Below are positions 2,754 through 26,531 of a stretch of 64,000 nt of DNA, piece by piece (the first letter of the stretch is position 1; each line of letters opens with the position of its first letter). Origin of the DNA: Pseudomonas alcaliphila JAB1 (GTDB lineage: Bacteria; Pseudomonadota; Gammaproteobacteria; Pseudomonadales; Pseudomonadaceae). The position numbers and the translations under genes were made by a program. The notes under the pieces are model-generated. The model was not told the origin of the DNA and made no database searches. It saw only the letters and a list, made by a program, of their open reading frames with translations. Location: the NCBI RefSeq assembly GCF_001941865.1, contig NZ_CP016162.1, positions 2,356,001 to 2,420,000 of the forward strand. The letters run 5' to 3'.

Positions 2754-5700
2754 ATGTCGATTTTCGAGCTGTTCTTCTTGATGGGCGCGGACCCGAGTGT
2801 CCTTGTGCTCAGTAGTTACGACACTTCCCTGGTGCTGCTGTCACTGGCTATTGCCGTATTCGCCGCCGGTATGGCGCTGCAGCTGGCTGGCGAAGCACGC
2901 GACAGTTCGCATCCGGTCGCCAGGCAAATCACCATTCTCACCGGTTCGCTCGCCCTTGGCGGCGGCATCTGGTCCATGCATTTTCTCGGCATGCTTGCCT
3001 TCGAGCTGTGTGCGGCGGTGCGATTCGATCTGGGCATTACGCTACTGTCGATGCTGCCGAGCCTGGCTGCTTCGTGGGTCGCGCTGAGCCTGCTGGCGCG
3101 GCGTGACTTGAGCCTGTTGCAGCTGTGTGTGGGGGGCGTACTGGTCGGAGCCGGCATCGGAGCCATGCACTACAGCGGTATGGCGGCGATGCAGATGGCG
3201 CCGCTGCTGCGCTATGACCCCTGGATGTTCGCCCTGTCCATCGTCGTTGCCGTCGCCCTGGCCATTCTGGCGTTGTGGGTACGCTTCGGTCTGGAGGGGC
3301 GTTTGCCGACACTCTGGGCGCTTCTGCTCAGCGCCCTGGTGATGGGCCTGGCGATCAGTGGCATGCACTATACCGGCATGGCCGCGGCGCGTTTCGTCGG
3401 TACGCCGGAGTCCGAGGCTCCGATGGCAGTGGTCGACAGTGGTTATATCGCCATTGCCATCACGCTGCTGACCGTCGCTCTGACAGTCTTCGTGGTGGCG
3501 GTCAATACGCTGCTGCGCTACCGCCGCATGAGTCTTCAACTCAAGGCCAGCGAGCAGCATTTGCGCTCGATCTTCGACACTGCTCTGGATGCCATCATCA
3601 CCGTCGATCACACCGGCACGTTGCGCTCGGCCAATCGCGCGGTCTCACGTCTGTTCGGCTGGATGCCGGAGGAGTTGGTGGGCATGCACATGCGCTCACT
3701 GATGCCTGCTCGCCATGTCGAGCAGGTGGATGTGCTGCTGGCGAACTACCTCAGAACGGGTCGCCTGACGATGCCGGCTGGTGAGCAGGAACTGGTGTGT
3801 CTGACCCGTGACGGCGAAGAGAAATTGGTGCGCATCAGCGTTGGCATCACCCATTCAGGCAGCCGTCCGCTGTTCGTGGTATTCGTCGCCGATATCAGCG
3901 AAAGACAAGCCATGGAGAAGGCCCTGCGTGACAGCGAGCAGCAGTACCGTTCGTTGATCAGCAACATTCCTGGTGTGTCGTTCCGCTGCACGCTGGATCA
4001 GGACTGGACCATGATATTTATCAGTGATGCGGTGCAGCCCCTCACCGGTTGGAGTGCGGAGGATTTCATCAGTCGCCGCTGTTCGATTGCCGATATGTAT
4101 CACCCGGACGACTATCAACGAGTCGCCGGCGAGGTGATGCAGGCTATCGAGCAAGGCCGCAACTACGTTGTCGAATACCGCTTGTTCGACCGCGATGGCG
4201 CGGAACACTGGATCTGGGAAAGTGGTAGCGCAGTTTGCGACGAGAACGGTGTGCCGCGCTGGATCGATGGCGTATTGCTCGACCAGACCGAAACCAAGCG
4301 GCGCAATGCCGAATACGAAGGCAAGGTTACCGCGATCAGCAAGGCGATGGCACTGATCGAGTTCGACCTCGACGGCAATATCCTCGACATCAACGACAAT
4401 GCACTGGCGTTGTTTGGTTATGACAAGGAGGAGGTGGCAGGGCACCACCACGGCATGTTCTGCGATCCTGAACTGGTGGCAAGCGATGCTTATCGCCAGG
4501 GTTGGGTGGATCTGCGTGCAGGTCATTTTCGAGCAGGTGAATACCAGCGCTTTGGTAAGGGCGGGCGGGAAGTCTGGATTCAGGCCAGCTACAACCCGAT
4601 CCTCGATACCGACGGCAAGCCGTTCAAGGTCGTCAAGTTGGCGACCGACCTGACCCCGCGCCGCGTCATGGAACAGGATCTGCGGGCTGCCCGTGATCGC
4701 GCCGAGGCCGCCGCTGCCGCGCGCAGCAGCTTCCTTGCCAACATGAGCCATGAAATTCGTACGCCGATGAATGCCATCATCGGGTTTACCGACCTGCTGC
4801 TGGAAACGCCGCTTTCCAGCGAGCAACGTCGCCATCTGAGCACCGTGCAGCATTCGTCGCGTTCGCTGTTGGGCTTGCTCAATGACATCCTCGACACGGC
4901 CAAGCTCGATCGTGGCGCCATCGAACTGGAACAACTGGATTTCTCCCTGCGCGAACTGTGCGAGCAGGTGCTCGCGACGCAGCGGCTGACGGCCGAGAGC
5001 AAAGGCCTGCAGCTGCATCTGGATTACCCGGCAACGACCCACGAGTTCTTCTGTGGTGACCCACTGCGTTTGCAACAGGTCCTGACCAACCTGCTCGGTA
5101 ATGCGGTCAAGTTCACCCTGCACGGCGAGGTTCGCCTGAAAGTGACGGGTGAGCCGGGCGCAATGCGCCTGGCGGTGAAGGACACCGGCATCGGTATCGC
5201 AGCCGACCGCCTGGAGAAGATCTTCGAGCCTTTCGCTCAGGCTGATGCCTCGATGAGCCGGCGCTTTGGCGGTACCGGCCTCGGCACCACCATTTCCCGG
5301 CAACTGGTCGAGTTGATGGGGGGGCGCTTGCGGGTCGAAAGCACCGAAGGGCAGGGCAGTTGCTTCAGCGTCGAGTTGCCGCTGCGTGCCGGCAAGCGTC
5401 TGGCCTCGCAGCAACGTGCCGTGCTGCCTGAGTTGGGGCAGTTGAACATCCTCGCGGCCGATGACGTGCCGCAGAACCTCGAGCTGCTGCAGCTGACCCT
5501 GGAGCATTTCGGCCATCGCGTACATTGCGTCGCCGATGGTGAAGGCGCACTGCAGGCGTTCACCCGGCAGCGCTTCGATCTGATCCTGATGGATGTGCAG
5601 ATGCCGGGTGTCGACGGCCTTGAAGCCTCGCGGCGGATTCGTCAGCTGGAAGCGGCCGAGGCACGAGAGCCGATTCCGATCATTGCCCTGACCGCCAGCG

Positions 5701-15665: not shown

Positions 15666-18600
15666 TCACTTCAATACGAGGCTCAGCACCTCGTCCATGT
15701 AGCCCTCTTCGCCAATGAAGAATACATGGAGGTTGTTCAGGTCCGGCTTTGCAAGGCCTTGCTGGCGCCACAGATGCTCGATACGCATGCGATTCGTGCT
15801 GGGTGATAGGATGGCCGACTCCAGCCGCACCTCTGGATCATTCAATCGCGTTTCGAGATCCTTGATGTTTTGGGCGAGCTGAATCTTGTCGCTGCCAGCG
15901 CCTTCATGCTCCAGACCATGCGGGTCGATGAAGCAGATGCGCTGGCTACCGTCAGGCTTCAGGCACCACAGGATGAAGTCGGGATAGAAGTTACCCGCCT
16001 CGAAGAAGCCAACGCCTTTGCGAGCCAGGTTGCGCAGCAGGAAGATGCGCTCACCACGCTCCGCCAGGTTTGCCTCGTTGGCCAGCAGCCATTGGCGTAC
16101 GTCGATAACGAACTGCAACTCGGATTTGTTCAGCGCGACAGGCTGGATCTTCACTTTCTCGCTGCAAAGCAGCGGCTCATAGAGGTGAGCATCCAGCCGC
16201 AGGCCTTGGATATAGCCGCTGTCGCGCCAGCCAACCTGAGCGAGTTCGTCCTTCAGTTTGCGGATGTCGTCGATCAGGTACTGCTCCGTCGCTTCGACGA
16301 TCAACTGGTAGCTGGCGTCGTCCCCTGGCAGGTTTTCATGCTCACGGGTGAGCTGCACCAGCTCCATGCGCGGGTCGAGGTATTTGCGCTTCTGATGGTT
16401 GAAGCAACGTTCGAGCGCGCCACAGAGCAATTCCAGTGCAATGGACTGCCAGTGCCGCAGATTGGCCATCGAAGGGGCCCACCAATGTGCCGGCACCAGA
16501 ATGCGATACCAGTCCGGGATCTCCAGCAACGAGCGTAATGCCCCGGCTTTGATGATGACGTTGTCCAGATGCCGATGGCGACGGAAGTGCTCCAGGTCGA
16601 ACCACAGCCGATCCCAGTCCAGCATCGACAGCCTCAGGTTGTCGAAGTGGCGGGGCGGGTTGGCCAGAGCCTCCGGTGTCTGGCTGGTGACTTCAGTAGC
16701 CTGGAGCATCTGCAGGCGTGGAAAGCGATCGACCACCAACGGCATGGCGCCTTTGGTCATGCCTGGGGGGAGGGCATCGATACTGAGATCCACGATGGGG
16801 CCATGTTTGCGGAAGTCGTACTGCTCCTGCGTGTCCTTGCGGAACTTGGAGCGCAGGATCTTGAGCTTCTGGCCGAAGTCATGGGTGACGTTGAGCTTGA
16901 TTTCCTCGACATGCGGCGCATCGTTCGGAGGCAGGCCTTCGCTTTCCAGAAAGTCGCGGAAGGTCGCCATGAAGTCAGCCTGCACGCCGAACACATTCAG
17001 GGTTTCCAGGAAGTGAATATCCTTTGGTGGATTGACCGGCTGATAGCGGCTGGTGCGCATCAAGCTGATGTCCTTGCCTTGCAGGCGTACGCCACGACCG
17101 AAAAGCTGAATGATCTGTGCGCCCTCGCTCTGGCCCATACGCATCAAGCCAAGGCTGGACACGCGCCAGCAGTCCCAGCCCTCGATGAACTTCTTCGAGC
17201 CAACCAGCATATGAATGGGCGAAGTCGGCTTGTGTACGTCCGCGAATACCGGCTCGCCAAACTCGCTCGGGCGCACCTCGGCCAGGGAGTGTTTGTCTTC
17301 CAGCTCGCTCTGCACATGTTTGGCCAGCGCTGCGGCGTCACCAACGTTGATTACGCCAAAGGGTTGTTCGGCCTCGCCCACCTTGAGCAGTAATTCGCCG
17401 CTGTCGCCTTTCACCCGCTCGACCACCAGGTGACCGCCACCGGGGGCATGGAACAGGCATTGGCAGATGTCGGCGTAAAGCTGCGCCGCGCTGTGCTTCA
17501 AGCCTCTCAGGTAGGGGAAAGACTGCACGAAGATATCGCGGCCTTGGGCGTCGAGCAGGCCGGTCTGCTGGCTATTGCCGTTGAGCACGGTGTTGATGAG
17601 CGTGGTGAAAGCTTCACGATGGGCCAGAAAGCGCGCGAGGAAATCGAGAATCTGCGCGACGTCCGAGGGCGACACGCTTTCCTCGTCGACCTTGCGCCCG
17701 CTGACGCTGGCGCCAACGAAGACCCACAGCGGCTTTTCCAGGTTATAGCCGGCGTAACACTTGCCGGCCTCCGTGTACATGCGTAGTTGCTGGTAGAACG
17801 CCAGCAGGGCGGCGGTGAGGTAGGTGTCCTTGTGCGCCAGCTCATCCTTGGGCAGGTTGAAGATGCGGTAGTCCTTGCCGTAACCGTCTGCATAAAAGTA
17901 GCGGTAGCTGTAATCGAACAGCACGGCCTTTGCGTAACTTTCAGCCAATACGCGGTCATTTGCAGCCTTGACGGCCTGCTTGAAGGTGGCGGAGTACTCG
18001 AAGGTAAAGCCCTTGGCAGCCAGCTTGTCGCGCTTGCTCTTCCAGTCACTGCCGCTCATGCCGCGGTGGCCCTCGTCCACCAGCAGCAGGTTGGCATCGC
18101 CGAAACTGTCGACAGCCATCTGCTTGACCTTTTGTTCGTCCGCCAACTTGGTGATTTCAGTCAGCAACGGCACATCCAGGGCATTTTGCCCGCGTGAGAT
18201 CAGGTCGCTTTCCTGCCTAAGCGGCTCAGGGTAGAAGCCATTCTCACGAAGCTCACGCTCGTGTTGCTCGGATAAGCGCTCATTTGGCGAGAGCACGATT
18301 ACCCGGCTGTATTCATCGGCCTGGCCGGTTGCCCGCGCATGCTGGGCAAACTGCAGCAGGTTGACGTGCATCAGTAGCGTTTTACCGCTGCCAGTGGCGT
18401 TCTGCAGGCAGAGCTTGTTGAGGTCTTCGACAGCGTAAGCGCTGATCCCGGTTTCACGCCCCAACGTGAGGTGGTGCTGGTTGAAACGCTCGATAAAGGC
18501 ATTGAGTGCGACACAAAGCCCCTGGCGGTCGTTGAAATAGCGGTCGAGGTAGATCTCTACAAACAGCAGCGTGAGCCACTGGAAGTATTTCCAGACAATT

Positions 18601-18944
18601 TCACCTTTGTGCTTGCGACGAGCGTTGATAGTGCGCGTATGGGCCACCAGGTTGGCGTCGTAGCGTTCCAGCTCAGCTGGGCTCAACGCAGCATGGGGCG
18701 GCAAGTGCGAGAGCAGGGCGGTGAGAAAGTGGTGCTTGCCATTCTTGTCGATGCCCGCCGTGGCACCGCGCAGGCTTTTGGCGATGATCTCCAGCGGGCG
18801 AACGTTGTGCGTGCCGTCCTTGTGCGTAACCAGCGGGTCGATGCCAAATAGACTGATCAGGTACTGATTGAGCACCAACGCTTCTTGGAAATGGCTGGCG
18901 ACCAAGAGCGGCTGAGCTTTGCCTTTACGTGGAGCACGAGCCAT
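15666..18944 (-). CDS. type III-like restriction subunit Res: DEAH helicase with C-terminal nuclease domain
   Basis: 1092 residues. Helicase motif I is ATGSGKT (183-189), motif II is DEGH (290-293) and motif VI is QLFGRGVRLQG (about 640). The last 110 residues contain YPDFILW (987-993) and FIDPHG (1005-1010), placed like a PD-(D/E)xK endonuclease, but with His1009 where Lys is expected. The family moves along DNA after Mod recognises an unmethylated site, and cuts. It is slightly longer than classic EcoP15I Res. The start lies one base after the Mod stop (TGA-G-ATG), so translation should depend on ribosomes finishing Mod. Confidence 0.87.
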   Translation of the reverse strand: MARAPRKGKAQPLLVASHFQEALVLNQYLISLFGIDPLVTHKDGTHNVRPLEIIAKSLRGATAGIDKNGKHHFLTALLSHLPPHAALSPAELERYDANLVAHTRTINARRKHKGEIVWKYFQWLTLLFVEIYLDRYFNDRQGLCVALNAFIERFNQHHLTLGRETGISAYAVEDLNKLCLQNATGSGKTLLMHVNLLQFAQHARATGQADEYSRVIVLSPNERLSEQHERELRENGFYPEPLRQESDLISRGQNALDVPLLTEITKLADEQKVKQMAVDSFGDANLLLVDEGHRGMSGSDWKSKRDKLAAKGFTFEYSATFKQAVKAANDRVLAESYAKAVLFDYSYRYFYADGYGKDYRIFNLPKDELAHKDTYLTAALLAFYQQLRMYTEAGKCYAGYNLEKPLWVFVGASVSGRKVDEESVSPSDVAQILDFLARFLAHREAFTTLINTVLNGNSQQTGLLDAQGRDIFVQSFPYLRGLKHSAAQLYADICQCLFHAPGGGHLVVERVKGDSGELLLKVGEAEQPFGVINVGDAAALAKHVQSELEDKHSLAEVRPSEFGEPVFADVHKPTSPIHMLVGSKKFIEGWDCWRVSSLGLMRMGQSEGAQIIQLFGRGVRLQGKDISLMRTSRYQPVNPPKDIHFLETLNVFGVQADFMATFRDFLESEGLPPNDAPHVEEIKLNVTHDFGQKLKILRSKFRKDTQEQYDFRKHGPIVDLSIDALPPGMTKGAMPLVVDRFPRLQMLQATEVTSQTPEALANPPRHFDNLRLSMLDWDRLWFDLEHFRRHRHLDNVIIKAGALRSLLEIPDWYRILVPAHWWAPSMANLRHWQSIALELLCGALERCFNHQKRKYLDPRMELVQLTREHENLPGDDASYQLIVEATEQYLIDDIRKLKDELAQVGWRDSGYIQGLRLDAHLYEPLLCSEKVKIQPVALNKSELQFVIDVRQWLLANEANLAERGERIFLLRNLARKGVGFFEAGNFYPDFILWCLKPDGSQRICFIDPHGLEHEGAGSDKIQLAQNIKDLETRLNDPEVRLESAILSPSTNRMRIEHLWRQQGLAKPDLNNLHVFFIGEEGYMDEVLSLVLK

Positions 18945-18945
18945 C

Positions 18946-21900
18946 TCAGGCGTCCTCCCACATGCGCTGAGCGAAGGTTTGCTCGATCAAGCGCACGCGC
19001 AGGGCCGCCTCACCGTCGCTAGGCAGCGCATGGTTGCCATTGACGTAAATGGTGGCGAACTCGCTCTCCCGTGGGTTGATGCCACGTTTGCCCAACCAGG
19101 CTTCCAGAGCCGCCTGGTCGCGACCGGAGTGGCCGGTGAGCTTGCGCCAGATGACCAGCACGCGCTCGCGTGACAATTCATCGCCCGGCACACGGAGAAC
19201 ATGGCCCTCCACCGCGCGGAACCAGAACTCGCCGTCTTCACGCTCCTTGATCGCGGTGGCGCGCCAGCGCGTGTCCTGATCCTGCGGCAGCTCGGGGTCG
19301 GTTTCGCGCACCAGCTCGATGGCATAACGGCGCGGCTGATCGAGGTGGGCGACATGCAGGCCAATCAGCCAGTTGAAGGTTTCCACCAGGTCGATGGTTT
19401 TCTCCACCTGGGCATCGCTGCCTGGCTGTTTGACCTTGAGTTTGTAGGAGGTTGGGTCACTGAATTCGCGCACATTGAGCAGGCTCGGGCTGCCAGCCGT
19501 CTCGAACTCCAGCCAATATTTGAGCAAGTAGTCGCGGGCCATCTCACTGGAGTCGGTCGCGCTGACATTCAAACGAGGACTATCTGGTAGTTGCAGGTTG
19601 TTTAGGGTGTCCTCGAATGATTCCAGGCGGATGTACTTAACCAGGAGAGAGTTGCCGTCGGCAGTTTCTGGGTTGCCCTCGCGCCATTTGGATGAATAGC
19701 CGACTTTCTGAATGCGAGTCTTGAGTTTCGAGTCGAAATGCTCGCCGGCTTCAACCAATAGGAAGCGTCTATTGAAGCTTTCTTCTGCATTCAGCCTAAT
19801 CACAGCATCAGCAGTGGTGCCTGAGCCTGCAAAGTAATCTGCAATTATGTCTCCGTCAGCACTACTGATTCTGATAACACGCTTGATTAGCTCCAAAGGC
19901 TTTGCTGTCAGGAATGCGCCTTCGCGCCCAAAGTAGGACGCACTTTCTTTCATGCCATCTTGAGAGTGACCGACATCCTGGCAGGACCACCATGTCCAAG
20001 GAACCATTCCGTCCATGTCTTTGAGAAATCTTTTTACAGCCGGTCGCCCTTTGCCGTCGCGCCCAAAATACATGCGGTTATCCGCTAAATAGCTTCTATA
20101 TTTTTCTTCAACAACTCCCCAGCAACGACCTGGCGGTGGTGTCATTACTTCGCCTGCGGGATTTTTTATTTTATACATTTGGTTCGGTCGGTAGCCTTGT
20201 GCTGTGAAGTTGTCAGCTTTCCAAGGTCCGCGGGGGTCGTTATCAGGGTTGTCGAACTGCTTAGTTTGGGCGTCAGTTAGTGGTAACTTTCTTCTGGTCT
20301 CAGAAAATTTCAAATGATCCACTGCAAAACAGTGGATGTACTCATGTGCATCGCTGATTATTGTCCTTATATCCGGGGCATATCTCTTTTGCCACACGAT
20401 ATCGGCGATATGGTTTTCTGCGCCGAATATCTGCTCAAGATTGAATTTCAGACGATGCGATTCGTTGTCATCGATTGAGGCGAATAGAGAACCCTCGGGC
20501 TTTAGAAGAGAATGCCCCTGCTCAACTGCATTAGCCATCATTGAGAGCCAAGAGGACTCTTTGTAACCATCCCTGTAGAGAAATTCTCCTGCGCCGGTAT
20601 TGTAAGGTGGATCAATGTAGATAGTTTTTACTGACTTTTTATAGCGCGTGTTTAGCAAGGTTAATGCATGGAAGTTGTGGGCATTGACCAGTACGCCGTT
20701 GGCGCGCTCTTCCAGATCGCTAATGCCGGCGATGATGCGAGACTTGAGACTGTCACTTAGCTGTGCTGTATCAATTACCAGTGTGCTATTTTCGTCAAGA
20801 AAATTGGGGGTCAACTCAGTGGCTCTTATGTCAAGTAGCTCCCTCCATTGTTTTATTAGGCCATCCTCCGGTGCTGCATTTGCTTCAGCACAGATGTCGG
20901 AATACAGGCCTTCAGGGATGCGATCCAATGAGATCAGCCAATTGGTCTCGACAACGAATTTTTTCTTGAGCCAAAGCTTCTTCTGAAAATCTTCAAGCTG
21001 GGCGAGAAAGTCGATAATGCGGCGAGAAATTTTGCGCAGCACGCGTAGCTTCTTCAGATATTCATCCACGCGCGGAGCATCGGCAGCTTCGATATCGTCG
21101 AGGCGGATGATTTCGTTCTTGATATAAAAGTCCAGCTCGCGGCGCAGGAATCCACCCAGGTTTTTGTGGATGAAGTAATCCATGGTATTGCGTGCTGTGA
21201 ATTGACCTAGGTATTTTCCTAATAAAGTTCGATTAGGTTGCTTGTCAGTAGGCGCTGGTGAAAGTATAATGCTGAGTTGCTGAGTTGCTGAGTTGCTGAG
21301 TTGCTGAGTTGCTGAGTTGCTGAGTTGCTGAGTTGCTGAGTTGCTGAGTTGCTGAGTTGCTGAGTTGCTGAGTTGCTGAGTTGCTGAGTTGCTGAGTTGC
21401 TGAGTTGCTGAGTTGCTGAGTTGCTGAGCAATCACTTGCTCGGCTTCAGCCAGACGTTTCTGTTGCCAGGTGCCGGCCTGGCCGGACTTTTCGCTATCGG
21501 GGCGGTAGTCGAACTGTATTACGAGTTCCGGCAATCCTTTATCGTTGGTTTCCAGCTTCAGCGGTTCTGCTGCGTGGATGATAAAGAAACGCTCCTGGCC
21601 TTCCTTGACGTTATTGTGCTCACCCTCTGCGGCGGCAGCCAGGCGGAAATGCACCTTGAGCGGAGTGGCATCGGTCGGCTGGAAGTCGAAGCCGCCTTGC
21701 TGCCCCTGTTCCTTGGCTAATGCTGCACTGAGATCGACGGTGAAGTTGCTGAGTGCCTCGCTGGATTTGATGTAGTACTGGTCTTTGTTGGCCCAGTGCA
21801 GCATGACTTCGCGGCCATCGTAGGGCACGGCATAGGGCGCAGCGCGGCTATCGTTTTCGGCGACGAAGTAGCGCTTCGACATGAAGTCGCCTTTGTCGTA

Positions 21901-22296
21901 GTAGCGACTGAAGAAGCGGTATAGGTGTTCGTACACTTGGGCATCGTCAGCCAGCACACCGCCGCCATCGCGGGCATGATGCTGGGCCAGCTCGAATTCT
22001 TTGCCAACCTTGGTGCCGCGATATTCAGGTTTCAGTTCACCGGTGGGCAGGAAGGCGTCCTCTCCGAGAGCTTCAGCGACTTTTACGCGGGCAGCTTCTA
22101 ATGCGTCATGAGCGTTGCTTTGTGACTGCCCGGCAAAGTGGGCGTCGATTTCGCTGCTCAGTTCGGTGTCGATAAAGGCCTTTATCTGGGCGCTACGGGC
22201 GTGAAGGATGCGGTACAGGCCAAAGTCGAGCTCGGGTTGGTTGAGCTGGAACAGTTCGCCCAGCAGGGCGATGAATTGGTCTTTTTGCTTGCTCAT
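18946..22296 (-). CDS. phase-variable N6-adenine DNA methyltransferase, type III-like Mod (long form)
   Basis: 1116 residues, nearly twice a typical type III Mod. Motif IV DPPYNTG is at 562-568 and motif I DYFAGSGTT at 820-828, the beta-class order. The segment between them should hold the target-recognition domain and is visibly AT-richer than the ends. Residues about 290-342 are six copies of QQLSNSAT plus QQLS, encoded by 19 perfect 8-bp repeats. Any change not divisible by three shifts the frame into a stop within about 20 codons, before all catalytic motifs. The frame is intact (ON) here. It starts 19 bp after fic, and its stop abuts Res. Confidence 0.9.
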   Translation of the reverse strand: MSKQKDQFIALLGELFQLNQPELDFGLYRILHARSAQIKAFIDTELSSEIDAHFAGQSQSNAHDALEAARVKVAEALGEDAFLPTGELKPEYRGTKVGKEFELAQHHARDGGGVLADDAQVYEHLYRFFSRYYDKGDFMSKRYFVAENDSRAAPYAVPYDGREVMLHWANKDQYYIKSSEALSNFTVDLSAALAKEQGQQGGFDFQPTDATPLKVHFRLAAAAEGEHNNVKEGQERFFIIHAAEPLKLETNDKGLPELVIQFDYRPDSEKSGQAGTWQQKRLAEAEQVIAQQLSNSATQQLSNSATQQLSNSATQQLSNSATQQLSNSATQQLSNSATQQLSIILSPAPTDKQPNRTLLGKYLGQFTARNTMDYFIHKNLGGFLRRELDFYIKNEIIRLDDIEAADAPRVDEYLKKLRVLRKISRRIIDFLAQLEDFQKKLWLKKKFVVETNWLISLDRIPEGLYSDICAEANAAPEDGLIKQWRELLDIRATELTPNFLDENSTLVIDTAQLSDSLKSRIIAGISDLEERANGVLVNAHNFHALTLLNTRYKKSVKTIYIDPPYNTGAGEFLYRDGYKESSWLSMMANAVEQGHSLLKPEGSLFASIDDNESHRLKFNLEQIFGAENHIADIVWQKRYAPDIRTIISDAHEYIHCFAVDHLKFSETRRKLPLTDAQTKQFDNPDNDPRGPWKADNFTAQGYRPNQMYKIKNPAGEVMTPPPGRCWGVVEEKYRSYLADNRMYFGRDGKGRPAVKRFLKDMDGMVPWTWWSCQDVGHSQDGMKESASYFGREGAFLTAKPLELIKRVIRISSADGDIIADYFAGSGTTADAVIRLNAEESFNRRFLLVEAGEHFDSKLKTRIQKVGYSSKWREGNPETADGNSLLVKYIRLESFEDTLNNLQLPDSPRLNVSATDSSEMARDYLLKYWLEFETAGSPSLLNVREFSDPTSYKLKVKQPGSDAQVEKTIDLVETFNWLIGLHVAHLDQPRRYAIELVRETDPELPQDQDTRWRATAIKEREDGEFWFRAVEGHVLRVPGDELSRERVLVIWRKLTGHSGRDQAALEAWLGKRGINPRESEFATIYVNGNHALPSDGEAALRVRLIEQTFAQRMWEDA
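21269..21428 (-). repeat. 19 x 8-bp tandem repeat (CTCAGCAA on the coding strand) inside mod
   Basis: Positions 21277-21428 are 19 uninterrupted perfect copies of TTGCTGAG (plus strand); 21269-21276 is one further copy with a single mismatch. Because 8 is not a multiple of 3, the repeat reads as the same 8-residue peptide in all three frames with no internal stop. A gain or loss of one unit changes only the downstream frame. One off-frame stops at about 21219 and the other within about ten codons of the tract. Long pure octamers of this kind are classic slipped-strand phase-variation tracts. Confidence 0.97.
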
Positions 22297-22315: not shown

Positions 22316-23437
22316 TCAGGCGTAGGCCTGGAATTCGTTGCTGTCGCGCGTCAGGAGCTGCATCAGCTTGGGATGAATGAAGAGTTTTTCCTTGCCGACC
22401 TGCACTTCGCGCAGCACGTCGATGCCGACCAGCTCTTTCAGGTAGCGGGAGGCGGCCTGCCGCTGCGCGATCTGCTTGTCGACCAGGTTGCTGATACGGC
22501 AGTAGGGCTGTTCGAAAATCACGTCGACCAGCTCACGGGAATAGGTTTTCGGCAGGCGTTCGCGCACGAACTCGGTGGTGTGTTCCGAGAGGCTGCGGAT
22601 GGCGGCGATTTTGGCGGTGGTCCAGCGGGCAGTTTCTTCCACGGCGCTGAGCATGTACAGCAGCCAAGGTTCCCAGGCTTGTTCGCGGGTGACATCCAGC
22701 AGCAGGCGGTAGTAATCAGCGCGGTGGGCGATGATGTAACGGCTGAGGTAGAGAATCGGCAGGCTCAGCAGACCTTGCTGAATCAGGTACAGGGTGTTGA
22801 GCACGCGTCCGGTGCGGCCGTTGCCATCGGCGAATGGGTGGATGGCCTCGAACTGGTAATGCCCAACGGCCATGCGCACTAGCGGGTCTAGGTCGGTTTC
22901 GTTGTGCAGGAAGCGCTCCCAGTTGGCGAGCAGGTTGCGCAAATGCTCTTCACCTTCCGGTGGGGTGTAGATGATCTGGCCGGTGCGGTCGTTGGCCAAC
23001 TGGGTACCCGGCACCCGACGAATATCCATGTTCACGCCCTTGAGCGTGCGGCAGATCTCGACTGCCGTAACGGTCGAGAGTGGGCGCTCGCTCAGGGACT
23101 GATAGCCCTGGTGCAGGGCTTTGCGATAACGCAGGGCTTCCTTGGTGGCCGGGTCGGCGTGATTTTCGCCATCCTGGGCATGCTGGAAGAGCAAGTCCGT
23201 GGTAGTGACGATGCTTTCGATTTCCGAGCTGTCCTTGGCTTCCAGTAACGGGATGGTGTTGATCAATACCGTTTGGTTGGGAATCAGCTCGGCTGCTTGC
23301 TTCAATTCCGCCAGGGCTGTGCGGGCCTCGATGCAGCGCTTGAGCACTGCACGGGTCTCCAGCTCTGCCGTGGGCGGCAATGGCGGAAGTTGGTTATAAG
23401 GCTTGTCAGCCTGCCAGGGCAGGGGGGATGCAGTCAT
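22316..23437 (-). CDS. Fic family protein with N-terminal inhibitory helix and C-terminal winged helix
   Basis: 373 residues. The Fic core motif HPFADGNGRTGR (200-211) is complete, including the catalytic His200 and the phosphate-binding loop, so it should transfer AMP (or another nucleotide part) to a target hydroxyl. An inhibitory-helix-like SSEIES lies at 70-75 (S-x3-E, with Ser where Gly or Asn is usual), as in class II Fic proteins that restrain themselves. The last 80 residues (ISNLVDKQIAQRQAASRYLKEL onward) look like a winged helix-turn-helix. The start is ATG 23437 with AGGA upstream. Sitting inside the RM operon, it may regulate or guard the system; this is inference. Confidence 0.9.
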   Translation of the reverse strand: MTASPLPWQADKPYNQLPPLPPTAELETRAVLKRCIEARTALAELKQAAELIPNQTVLINTIPLLEAKDSSEIESIVTTTDLLFQHAQDGENHADPATKEALRYRKALHQGYQSLSERPLSTVTAVEICRTLKGVNMDIRRVPGTQLANDRTGQIIYTPPEGEEHLRNLLANWERFLHNETDLDPLVRMAVGHYQFEAIHPFADGNGRTGRVLNTLYLIQQGLLSLPILYLSRYIIAHRADYYRLLLDVTREQAWEPWLLYMLSAVEETARWTTAKIAAIRSLSEHTTEFVRERLPKTYSRELVDVIFEQPYCRISNLVDKQIAQRQAASRYLKELVGIDVLREVQVGKEKLFIHPKLMQLLTRDSNEFQAYA

Positions 23438-23473
23438 GGATGCGATCCTGATCCTTGGTATCCATCTAATGGC

Positions 23474-23499
23474 AAGGGCGCTCTGGTGAGCGCCCTTTT
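23474..23499 (+). terminator. terminator-shaped hairpin upstream of fic, plus orientation
   Basis: A 10-bp perfect stem (AAGGGCGCTC/GAGCGCCCTT) with a TGGT loop and a T-run on the plus strand. No plus-strand gene reads into it. On the transcribed minus strand it would be a hairpin in the fic leader without a U-run. It may be a remnant of the earlier locus or may block antisense transcription. Confidence 0.5.
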
Positions 23500-23530
23500 C
23501 GTGGTTGCAGTGTAAACATGTATGCATGAC

Positions 23531-23630: not shown

Positions 23631-26531
23631 TCAAATCACGGCCCAACGCATGGTGAAGAGTGTTTGGGTACGGCTGGCGCGATGCAGGCGTTTCTCCAGG
23701 GCTTCGATGAGCGCATCGCGGCGCGCCTCGATTTCGTCCTCCACGGAGAAGATTTCCTGGCGTTGACGCCGCTGTTCTCCCTCTACCTTGCGGATGTCAT
23801 CCTGCAGACGGCGGGCTTCGTCCATGCTTTGGGCAACGCGCGCCTGACGTTTCAGTCCTTTGAGCTTGAGCTTGGTGTCCTGTAGGGCTTGCTCGGCAGC
23901 GAGAATGCGGTCTTCGGCCCAAGCATCGAGCTTGTCGCGTTCTTGCTGGAAGAACTTGTCGTTTTGTTCCAATGCTTGGCTCAACGCGGCATCGATCTGG
24001 CGACGGGCATTGCCATGCAGATCATCCGGTGGGCTGATCTGCGTTGGCTCTACATGTGCGCAAAGCTGGAAGAGCTTCTCGCAGGCTTCTTGATCGAGTA
24101 GCTCGCCGCTATCGGTCATGGCGGTGAAAACCAAGTGCTCTTCGCGCTGAAAACTGTCGAGCTCCAGCAGGTTGAGTTGCAGCCAGCCCTGTTTACCCAG
24201 CAGTTGCTCGATCACGCTTATGCGTGGGTTACGAGCTTCAAGCCATTGCGCATAACTGAAGTGCAGCGTTGCGCTGGGCGTAGAGGCGCTGCGGCCTCGA
24301 TCGAGAACGTATTCACCAAGCGGGTGTGTAAGCCGATAGATGCGGGCGTTTTCAGGCTGGATCTGCTTGGCCTGTTCGCCTTTGCGGATGAGCTGATAAT
24401 GCCCTGTGGCCACCTGTGGAAGAGGTGGTAGCTTGAGATCAAACGCCAGGTTCTGGCTGTCGAATTTAGCGTGCTCAGCCAGGATGCACTGAGTCAGTTT
24501 CCAGAACAGGCGGGTTATTCGGTCTAGCTGGCTTTCAGCTCGCTCTTTGTGGGTCTTGAGCAGGCTGTGAATGTCTGCATCGAAGTTTTCCAGCAGGAGC
24601 TTTTCGGTTTCCAGCATTTTTGCCTGGATGTCGGCGTCCAGTTCGGCACGCAAGCTGGTGAACGCTGCGTCGATCTCTTGTGGGGTGCGGCAGCAGTTGT
24701 AGATCTCAGCAATGCGCTTCTCGAAATCAATGCCGGCTTCGATCCTGCCGAGCACTTGGTCAGACGCACCAAAAACGCCATCGAACAAATGAAACTTGTC
24801 CTGAAGGAGTTCCAGGACTCGTCGATCTGCGGCATTGCGCTGGTTGAGGAAGTTGATGACGACTACGTCAAACCGTTGGCCATAGCGGTGGCAACGCCCA
24901 ATGCGCTGTTCTACTCGTTGCGGGTTCCACGGCAGGTCATAGTTCACGACCAAAGAGCAGAACTGTAGGTTTACACCTTCGGCGGCAGCCTCGGTCGCAA
25001 TCAGAATTTCGGCCGTATCACGGAAGTGATCGATAAGCGCTGTGCGGCGATCGATAGCTGGCGAGCCGGTTACACGGTCACTACCGTGGTAGCGAGCCAG
25101 CCAGCGTTGATAGATGCCGGTAGCGGCCTCACCCTGGTTGCCGCCACTGAAGGTGACGACTTTGCCAAGGTGGCCGTGGGCTTCTAGAAAACGGGCCAGG
25201 TATTCTTGAGTCCGGCGTGACTCGGTGAAAATGACGGCCTTACGTGGGGCGCCCATGCCGGACATGCGTGCAAAGCCTTGTTCCAGCGCATTGAGCAAGG
25301 CGAATGATTTCTGGTCTTCGCGGATGCTGTGGGCAATCTCGATGTAGGTATCGAGCTCGGTGATTTCCTTGCTCAGCAGCTCGAAGTCGATTTTGCTGGC
25401 CGAGTCTTGGGCTTCGTAACCTGCTGCATCTTCTGCGGCTTCCAGTAGGTCTTCTTCTAGTTCGTTCTCTTCGATCAGATGCTCGAACCATTGCTCATCG
25501 ATGCTCTGGCGATCCAGTAGCTTCTGTAGGCGCGCCTTGATGGCTTCCAGGGTAGCCAGAACAGCTTCTGTCGAAGAGGCCAGGAGCTTGCGCAGGATGA
25601 GTGCGACGAGATGCTTTTGCCGTTGTGGAAAGCCGTAGCTGAAGTCGCGATGCAAGTAGGTGGAAATGAGATCGTAGAGGCGCTGTTCATCATCGCTGGG
25701 GGTGAACGGTGTAGTCAGTGCGTGACGCTGCGTATAGGGCACGTACTCAAGGACGTCTTTACGCAGTGTGCGCTTGATGAAGGCATGCAGGCGGCGACTT
25801 AGCGCAACTAGATCCGCGTCGATGTTGCTGTACTGGGCACGGAAGCTGCGCTCATCGCCGAAGATGTCTTCGTCTATCAAGGAGCTGAGACCATACAGCT
25901 CCATCAATGAGTTCTGCAGAGGGGTGGCGGTCAGCAGAAGCTTGCGCCGTCCAGCCAATGAACGCTTGAGCGACTGGCCGGTTTCATTGCTTTTGCGATG
26001 GGCGTTGCGCAGCTTGTGGGCTTCATCGATGGCGACCAAATCCCAGGGAATGTTGCCAAGCTGCTCCTCCATACGGGCTGCAAAGTTCAGCGACATGATG
26101 CTGATGACGTCGCGATCCAATGGATCGTAGATGCCTTGCTCGCGGAGCAATTTCCAGGTCCGAGCGTCCAGCACTTGCGTCGGTAGGTTGAATTTGTCGG
26201 AGAGCTCCTGTGCCCACTGTTTGCGCAGCGCTGCCGGGCAGATGACGAGCAAACGACGGCGGCGTTCTGCCCACATCTGGCACAGGACGAGCGCGGCTTC
26301 GATGGTTTTGCCGAGGCCTACCTCATCCGCCAGCATCACCCCTTTACTGAGTGGGTTGTGCAAGGCGAAAAGGGCTGCGTCTATCTGGTGTGGATTGAGA
26401 TCGACACTGGCATCGAATAGCGATTGGGAGAGCCGATCCTCTTCGCTGGCAGCGCGACGGCGCGTGAGCTCCCAGGCGAAATATTTGGCGTGATGCGGGG
26501 TAAGGCTGCTTGGGGGCGTGAGCGACGACAT
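23631..26531 (-). CDS. SNF2/RapA-like helicase of the defence locus
   Basis: 966 residues, superfamily 2. Motif I is DEVGLGKTIEA (69-79), motif II DEAH (169-172) and motif III TATPLQNS (about 200). The second RecA lobe has FTESRRTQEYL, ATEAAAEGVNLQ and motif VI QRIGRCHRYGQ, the Swi2/Snf2-HepA pattern. The C-terminal 250 residues are a long charged coiled coil. Such translocases accompany several phage-defence systems, where they move along DNA or displace proteins. Start ATG 26531 with GAGGGA upstream. It is first in the operon, separated from fic by a 193-bp regulatory gap. Confidence 0.9.
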   Translation of the reverse strand: MSSLTPPSSLTPHHAKYFAWELTRRRAASEEDRLSQSLFDASVDLNPHQIDAALFALHNPLSKGVMLADEVGLGKTIEAALVLCQMWAERRRRLLVICPAALRKQWAQELSDKFNLPTQVLDARTWKLLREQGIYDPLDRDVISIMSLNFAARMEEQLGNIPWDLVAIDEAHKLRNAHRKSNETGQSLKRSLAGRRKLLLTATPLQNSLMELYGLSSLIDEDIFGDERSFRAQYSNIDADLVALSRRLHAFIKRTLRKDVLEYVPYTQRHALTTPFTPSDDEQRLYDLISTYLHRDFSYGFPQRQKHLVALILRKLLASSTEAVLATLEAIKARLQKLLDRQSIDEQWFEHLIEENELEEDLLEAAEDAAGYEAQDSASKIDFELLSKEITELDTYIEIAHSIREDQKSFALLNALEQGFARMSGMGAPRKAVIFTESRRTQEYLARFLEAHGHLGKVVTFSGGNQGEAATGIYQRWLARYHGSDRVTGSPAIDRRTALIDHFRDTAEILIATEAAAEGVNLQFCSLVVNYDLPWNPQRVEQRIGRCHRYGQRFDVVVINFLNQRNAADRRVLELLQDKFHLFDGVFGASDQVLGRIEAGIDFEKRIAEIYNCCRTPQEIDAAFTSLRAELDADIQAKMLETEKLLLENFDADIHSLLKTHKERAESQLDRITRLFWKLTQCILAEHAKFDSQNLAFDLKLPPLPQVATGHYQLIRKGEQAKQIQPENARIYRLTHPLGEYVLDRGRSASTPSATLHFSYAQWLEARNPRISVIEQLLGKQGWLQLNLLELDSFQREEHLVFTAMTDSGELLDQEACEKLFQLCAHVEPTQISPPDDLHGNARRQIDAALSQALEQNDKFFQQERDKLDAWAEDRILAAEQALQDTKLKLKGLKRQARVAQSMDEARRLQDDIRKVEGEQRRQRQEIFSVEDEIEARRDALIEALEKRLHRASRTQTLFTMRWAVI

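Follow-up and report, generated by a model that had tools for sequence, protein, structure and literature searches.

The window, by which we mean the whole 64,000-nucleotide stretch of Pseudomonas alcaliphila JAB1 that was analysed, contains an operon with the gene order SNF2 helicase-SoFic-Mod-Res, all four genes lying on one strand:

23631..26531, minus strand: SNF2-family helicase of 966 aa, nearest to the DrmD models in a profile search
22316..23527, minus strand: Fic protein adenylyltransferase of the SoFic family, with HPFADGNGR at residue 230
18946..22296, minus strand: mod, type III beta-class DNA methyltransferase of 1116 aa, with DPPYNTG at residue 562 and FAGSGTT at residue 822
15666..18944, minus strand: res, type III restriction subunit of 1092 aa (REase_III, 4.3e-164), with TGSGKT at residue 184 and DEGH at residue 290

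The Mod protein matches the PADLOC profile MTase_III (PDLC03646, 8.5e-172) and the Pfam family PF01555 (N6_N4_Mtase), and its relatives in PDB, 6k0w (4.5e-46) and the EcoP15I Mod (4zcf, 1.6e-23), both align with the catalytic part. The DPPY motif precedes the FxGxG motif, as in beta-class enzymes; the sequence-only reading of this DNA had placed DPPYNTG correctly and FAGSGTT one residue too early, at 821. The adjoining Res protein has the superfamily 2 helicase motifs TGSGKT, DEGH, SAT and QLFGRG. Since the res ATG, with GGAGG ahead of it, begins one base past the mod stop, translation of the two genes is probably coupled. The candidate PD-(D/E)XK nuclease motif of Res reads PDFILW...IDPHG. 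The ending DPHG is common to the window protein and four close orthologues, L105 has EPHG, and three distant homologues have DPKG (two further loci gave no match). Histidine may stand in for the usual nuclease lysine in the window protein, and with DPH where three of the eight homologues compared have DPK, its ability to cut DNA is uncertain.

The Fic protein scores 660.6 bits against NF046030, above the cut-off of 550. The SNF2 protein is nearest to models of the DISARM component DrmD, at 626.5 and 636.2 bits in two profile searches, and falls below the curated DrmD cut-offs (NF038318, 636.2 versus 950; NF038317, 274.1 versus 610). The operon also differs from DISARM in what follows the SNF2 gene, here fic and the genes of a type III Mod-Res pair. 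An SNF2 gene adjoins or lies near mod in five relatives (L081, L080, L079, L073, and L082), among them an E. coli plasmid (L081), Conchiformibius (L080) and a viral contig (L082, where the SNF2 motifs were judged by eye); in Hymenobacter (L079) other genes stand in between. At L105, Mod and Res are present and an SNF2 match is absent within the 12 kb examined. Both Ectopseudomonas oleovorans genomes carry, in the gap between SNF2 and fic, a small element with inverted ends (CAGGCCGTTGAAAAAC), at 12065-12220 in L084 and at 12622-12864 in L085 (the latter including an N run), which looks like a MITE; the window is free of it at the corresponding site, 23466-23469. Copies of this end sequence number 23 in the genome of the window, and at four places two of them form a pair 124 bp apart.

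Within mod, the following features bear on its expression:

21270..21428, minus strand: octamer array of 19.875 copies (coding strand CTCAGCAA), a predicted slippage switch encoding a putative QLSNSATQ-repeat linker
21245..21247, minus strand: TGA, the first stop in one OFF frame
21219..21221, minus strand: TAG, the first stop in the other OFF frame
19597..20946, minus strand: central swapped cassette, about aa 451-900, with 17-64% identity to L034, L016, and L017

The array is a perfect run of 159 bp built of the unit TGCTGAGT, and it occupies nucleotides 869-1027 of the open reading frame, that is, codons 290-343. The sequence-only reading had counted 19 copies of the unit; 19 whole copies are indeed present, with seven bases in addition. 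Tandem Repeats Finder (TRF) reported a period of 8, 19.9 copies, 100% match and no indel, in agreement with the claim of a perfect run inside the Mod gene. Frame translation likewise confirmed that every frame of the coding strand is free of stops and yields one peptide, (TQQLSNSA)n, whereas each frame of the opposite strand contains TGA. The longest other period-8 runs in the rest of the window measure 15-16 bp, and those in 20 first-order Markov simulations of the window 15-18 bp, which excludes a chance origin of the array. In the 5.34-Mb single-contig genome, at least three perfect units are found at one site only.

The length of the product was followed through simulated changes in the number of units. 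Loss or gain of a single unit leaves 347 or 361 aa, respectively, and loss or gain of two units leaves 353 or 355 aa, all four fragments being devoid of catalytic motifs; three units fewer or more give proteins of 1108 or 1124 aa, compared with 1116 aa for the unchanged gene. In both off-frames a stop follows at most 17 codons past the array. The earlier prediction that the gene is ON at 19 copies and OFF at 17, 18, 20, and 21, with fragments of about 350 residues and off-frame stops near the array, is thus borne out. As expected of a phase-variable mod gene, the tract lies inside the open reading frame, its unit is not divisible by three, and the off-frame stops come early. Because an in-frame ATG follows the array (M372, the sole methionine codon of the ON frame in residues 344-560), re-initiation may produce a truncated Mod that keeps the catalytic motifs, and the OFF state is perhaps not entirely silent.

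Scanning 84,980 species genomes (genome_contigs) for four perfect units returned 40 stretches, two of which lie in this mod gene by tblastn; the other Mod matches among them covered the repeat only. The two genomes, Pseudomonas indoloxydans JCM 14246 (L034) and P. oleovorans DSM 1045 (L036), both bear the name Ectopseudomonas oleovorans in the NCBI taxonomy, and both carry the array in the mod gene, at a chromosomal position that corresponds to that in the window. The JCM 14246 copy has an array of 191 bp in an open frame of 1157 codons. The DSM 1045 copy has an array of 127 bp, a length that may reflect assembly collapse, and its frame is broken into pieces of 373 and 829 codons. These two copies are identical over the 300 bp ahead of the array and agree at 291 of the 300 positions after it. 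Two further close copies of the operon have no array: L017 (genome G201), at the chromosomal site shared with the window, L084, and L085, and L016 (genome G075), whose match to the window is limited to the operon. The array is therefore present in three of the five close copies.

At the E-values set, and with the window's own genome included, the Mod protein search found matches in 3 of 249 genus genomes, 3 of 198 genomes of the family sample, and 7 of 369 of the class sample. When the first 868 bp of mod served as a DNA query against 293 relatives, 13 genomes gave a match, three of them over a long stretch (own genome, G075, and G1038) and the other ten over 23-80 bp. The pattern of three units occurred in two of 398 genus genomes (own and JCM 14246), and its reversed control in one. 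Mod matches also include seven plasmid, four E. coli, and seven phage records, from which two plasmid records and one E. coli record were examined in detail. In all 11 more distant homologues compared, the site of the array is filled by unrelated ordinary sequence of variable length (L019 and L078, matching in the catalytic part only, were left out of this comparison, and L083 was dropped for its short match). No octamer array was detected by TRF in the more distant Mod homologues scanned; some of their mod genes contain short imperfect repeats with units of 12 bp (L018), 15 bp (L079), and 7 bp (L074). The last of these, at 4516-4547 in the C-terminal part, consists of 4.6 copies with 88% matches.

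Nothing marks the octamer as special: arrays of it occur in many phyla. The 40 stretches of at least four units are spread widely, with arrays of about 4-14 units at, for example, L022, L045, L058, L046, and L054, and one more stretch (L072) was found in viral_contigs. In 23 of the 40 there is no frame through the array with at least 200 codons outside it, some loci ending near the array; at L020 and L028 it stands at the locus end, and one side only is visible. Three Bacteroidales MAGs, RGIG4154, RGIG313, and RGIG7428, account for 14 of the 40 stretches (L026, L030, L032, L035, L037-L040, L042, L048-L050, L052, and L053), and at L035, L040, L042, and L053 the array is located 29-30 codons before the end of the open frame. 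Treponema vincentii has three octamer arrays. The arrays of Erwinia (L046) and Enterobacter (L054) seem to share one location, with a 244-aa ORF before and a 398-aa convergent ORF after.

The broken frame of the DSM 1045 copy suggests a natural OFF allele, and its deposited length calls for caution. The genome of this strain, isolated from industrial cutting fluid, was sequenced with a 600-cycle MiSeq kit and assembled with SPAdes 3.8.0, the k value being absent from the genome paper (PMC5552989). Five longer arrays were tried, of 135, 143, 159, 191, and 247 bp, and in a k=127 graph the shortest path through each of them has exactly 127 bp. For such reads 127 is the usual top value of k. DSM 1045 is therefore not taken as a natural OFF strain: its deposited array has exactly the k=127 collapse length in a SPAdes assembly. 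An artefact of assembly, with a true array that is longer, is the somewhat more probable explanation of the broken frame and is compatible with a switch; against it, 600-cycle reads could span 127 bp, and a genuine array of 127 bp would look identical. The 191 bp of JCM 14246 are also uncertain because its sequence has an N run within the mod operon, from masking or from a gap in the assembly. The window gene is in an ON frame, and so, given this caution about length, is that of JCM 14246; with DSM 1045 possibly collapsed, there is no secure OFF allele. More generally, what looks like an OFF allele at a repeat tract may be a product of draft assembly.

The one copy broken as deposited could also be taken to mean that mod is decaying in part of the lineage and that the array is a lesion and not a switch. 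This seems to us very improbable, since the DSM 1045 copy has one open frame on each side of the array and mod is uninterrupted in the window and JCM 14246. Moreover, by the NG86 method the window and DSM 1045 genes differ by dN 0.028 and dS 0.655 before the array (289 codons) and by dN 0.041 and dS 0.514 after it (770 codons). The resulting dN/dS is low on both sides of the array, about 0.08 after it, so the stretch missing from OFF products is being kept up at the amino-acid level.

Over the 300-bp flanks, 513 of 578 aligned positions (88.8%) are the same in the window and JCM 14246, whereas the array shows zero differences over 159 bp (P of about 6e-9 for a static sequence); compared with DSM 1045, it shows zero differences over 127 bp (P of 5.5e-7). 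With an invariant array between diverged flanks, the simplest reading, and one that does not hinge on the precise array lengths, is that the array is homogenised by slippage and undergoes continual expansion and contraction. The array could also have been transferred recently or have grown independently in each lineage, which would involve slippage as well, or the assembler may have cleaned the draft copies; the last could not account for the perfect array of the window, provided that the window genome was well read.

The Mod protein is a mosaic. In blocks of 50 residues, L034, L016, and L017 have 80-100% identity with the window protein throughout positions 1-450 and 901-1116, the array block excepted. 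The central cassette between them, the boundaries of which are approximate at this resolution, is of the window's type in DSM 1045 (76-98% identical) and holds the two catalytic motifs and presumably also the domain for target recognition. Conserved ends with an exchanged centre are again a feature of phase-variable mod genes. A structure prediction made from five aligned sequences had a mean pLDDT of 35.3 and was set aside as worthless. The array, ahead of the cassette, is predicted from sequence comparison to encode a linker, and if it does, ON forms with different numbers of units should all work. The position in a variable linker, the open frames of the window and JCM 14246, and the two close copies lacking the array would also fit a gene that is effectively always ON, in which slippage gave rise to a length-tolerant linker and frame errors are purged. 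We consider this unlikely, as such a linker would not need perfection at the DNA level: silent changes would be expected at the rate of the flanks and there are none in 159 bp, and a unit of 8 bp puts two of the three length classes out of frame.

The window gene is thus probably a phase-variable type III mod with an ON/OFF switch operated by slippage, a prediction well supported by the frame logic and by the comparison of the array with its flanks. Replication slippage would add or remove octamer units. Cells with 19 ± 3n units would make the full-length Mod and hence the Mod-Res complex, and cells with other unit numbers a fragment of about 350 aa without a catalytic motif. The OFF cells would lose methylation and, for restriction, target recognition together, while the SNF2 and Fic genes, being upstream of the array, would remain expressed.

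This organisation resembles that of the modA and modS genes as described in excerpts from PMC3311624 and PMC8125046: a repeat tract within the ORF followed by a central recognition domain that is exchanged between alleles, conservation of the gene at its 5' and 3' sides, a prediction of ON and OFF states from the frame, and a neighbouring res gene. It differs in the unit (an octamer versus a tetranucleotide in modA and GAGCA in modS), in the position of the tract (codons 290-343 of a 1116-aa Mod versus near the gene start in modS), in the extent of the swapped part, which here includes both catalytic motifs, and in the additional SNF2 and Fic genes. For modS, the ON/OFF protein and the regulon have been demonstrated; the switch of the window mod is a prediction from sequence. 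Similarly, EcoP15I shares with the window system a Mod that matches in the catalytic part and an adjacent Res with helicase motifs, but the window Mod is longer (1116 versus 644 aa), and the DPH motif of its Res and the SNF2 and Fic genes of its operon set it apart from EcoP15I-type systems. Three features are less usual: the octamer unit, the linker position after about 290 residues, and the operon with SNF2 and Fic genes.

According to excerpts from PMC7394358, the best-studied phase-variable type III Mods come from host-adapted pathogens, but commensal and environmental organisms have also been reported to carry repeats in type III genes, and 17.4% of the REBASE type III mod genes contain such repeats (a figure quoted there). 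Mod genes with a repeat are thus not in themselves rare. Among the open-access matches listed, as judged by titles and the starts of abstracts, none dealt with phase variation of a type III mod gene in this Pseudomonas group, a weak negative, and among the papers found on SNF2 or Fic proteins with type III systems there was nothing that we recognised as the window operon.

More tentatively, the locus might constitute a true phasevarion, in which Mod switching alters the expression of other genes, in a free-living relative of Pseudomonas. Octamer slippage would then remove modification and restriction while the helicase and the AMPylating enzyme stay on, a clone would always keep a minority of cells that admit foreign DNA and whose transcriptome differs, and the swapped cassette would change the marked sequence between strains; we regard this as possible, though doubtful. 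Whether phage defence alone maintains such switches is called unclear in an excerpt from PMC11868660. If the prediction is true, a switch in relatives of E. oleovorans would permit a test of phage defence as the sole maintaining force.
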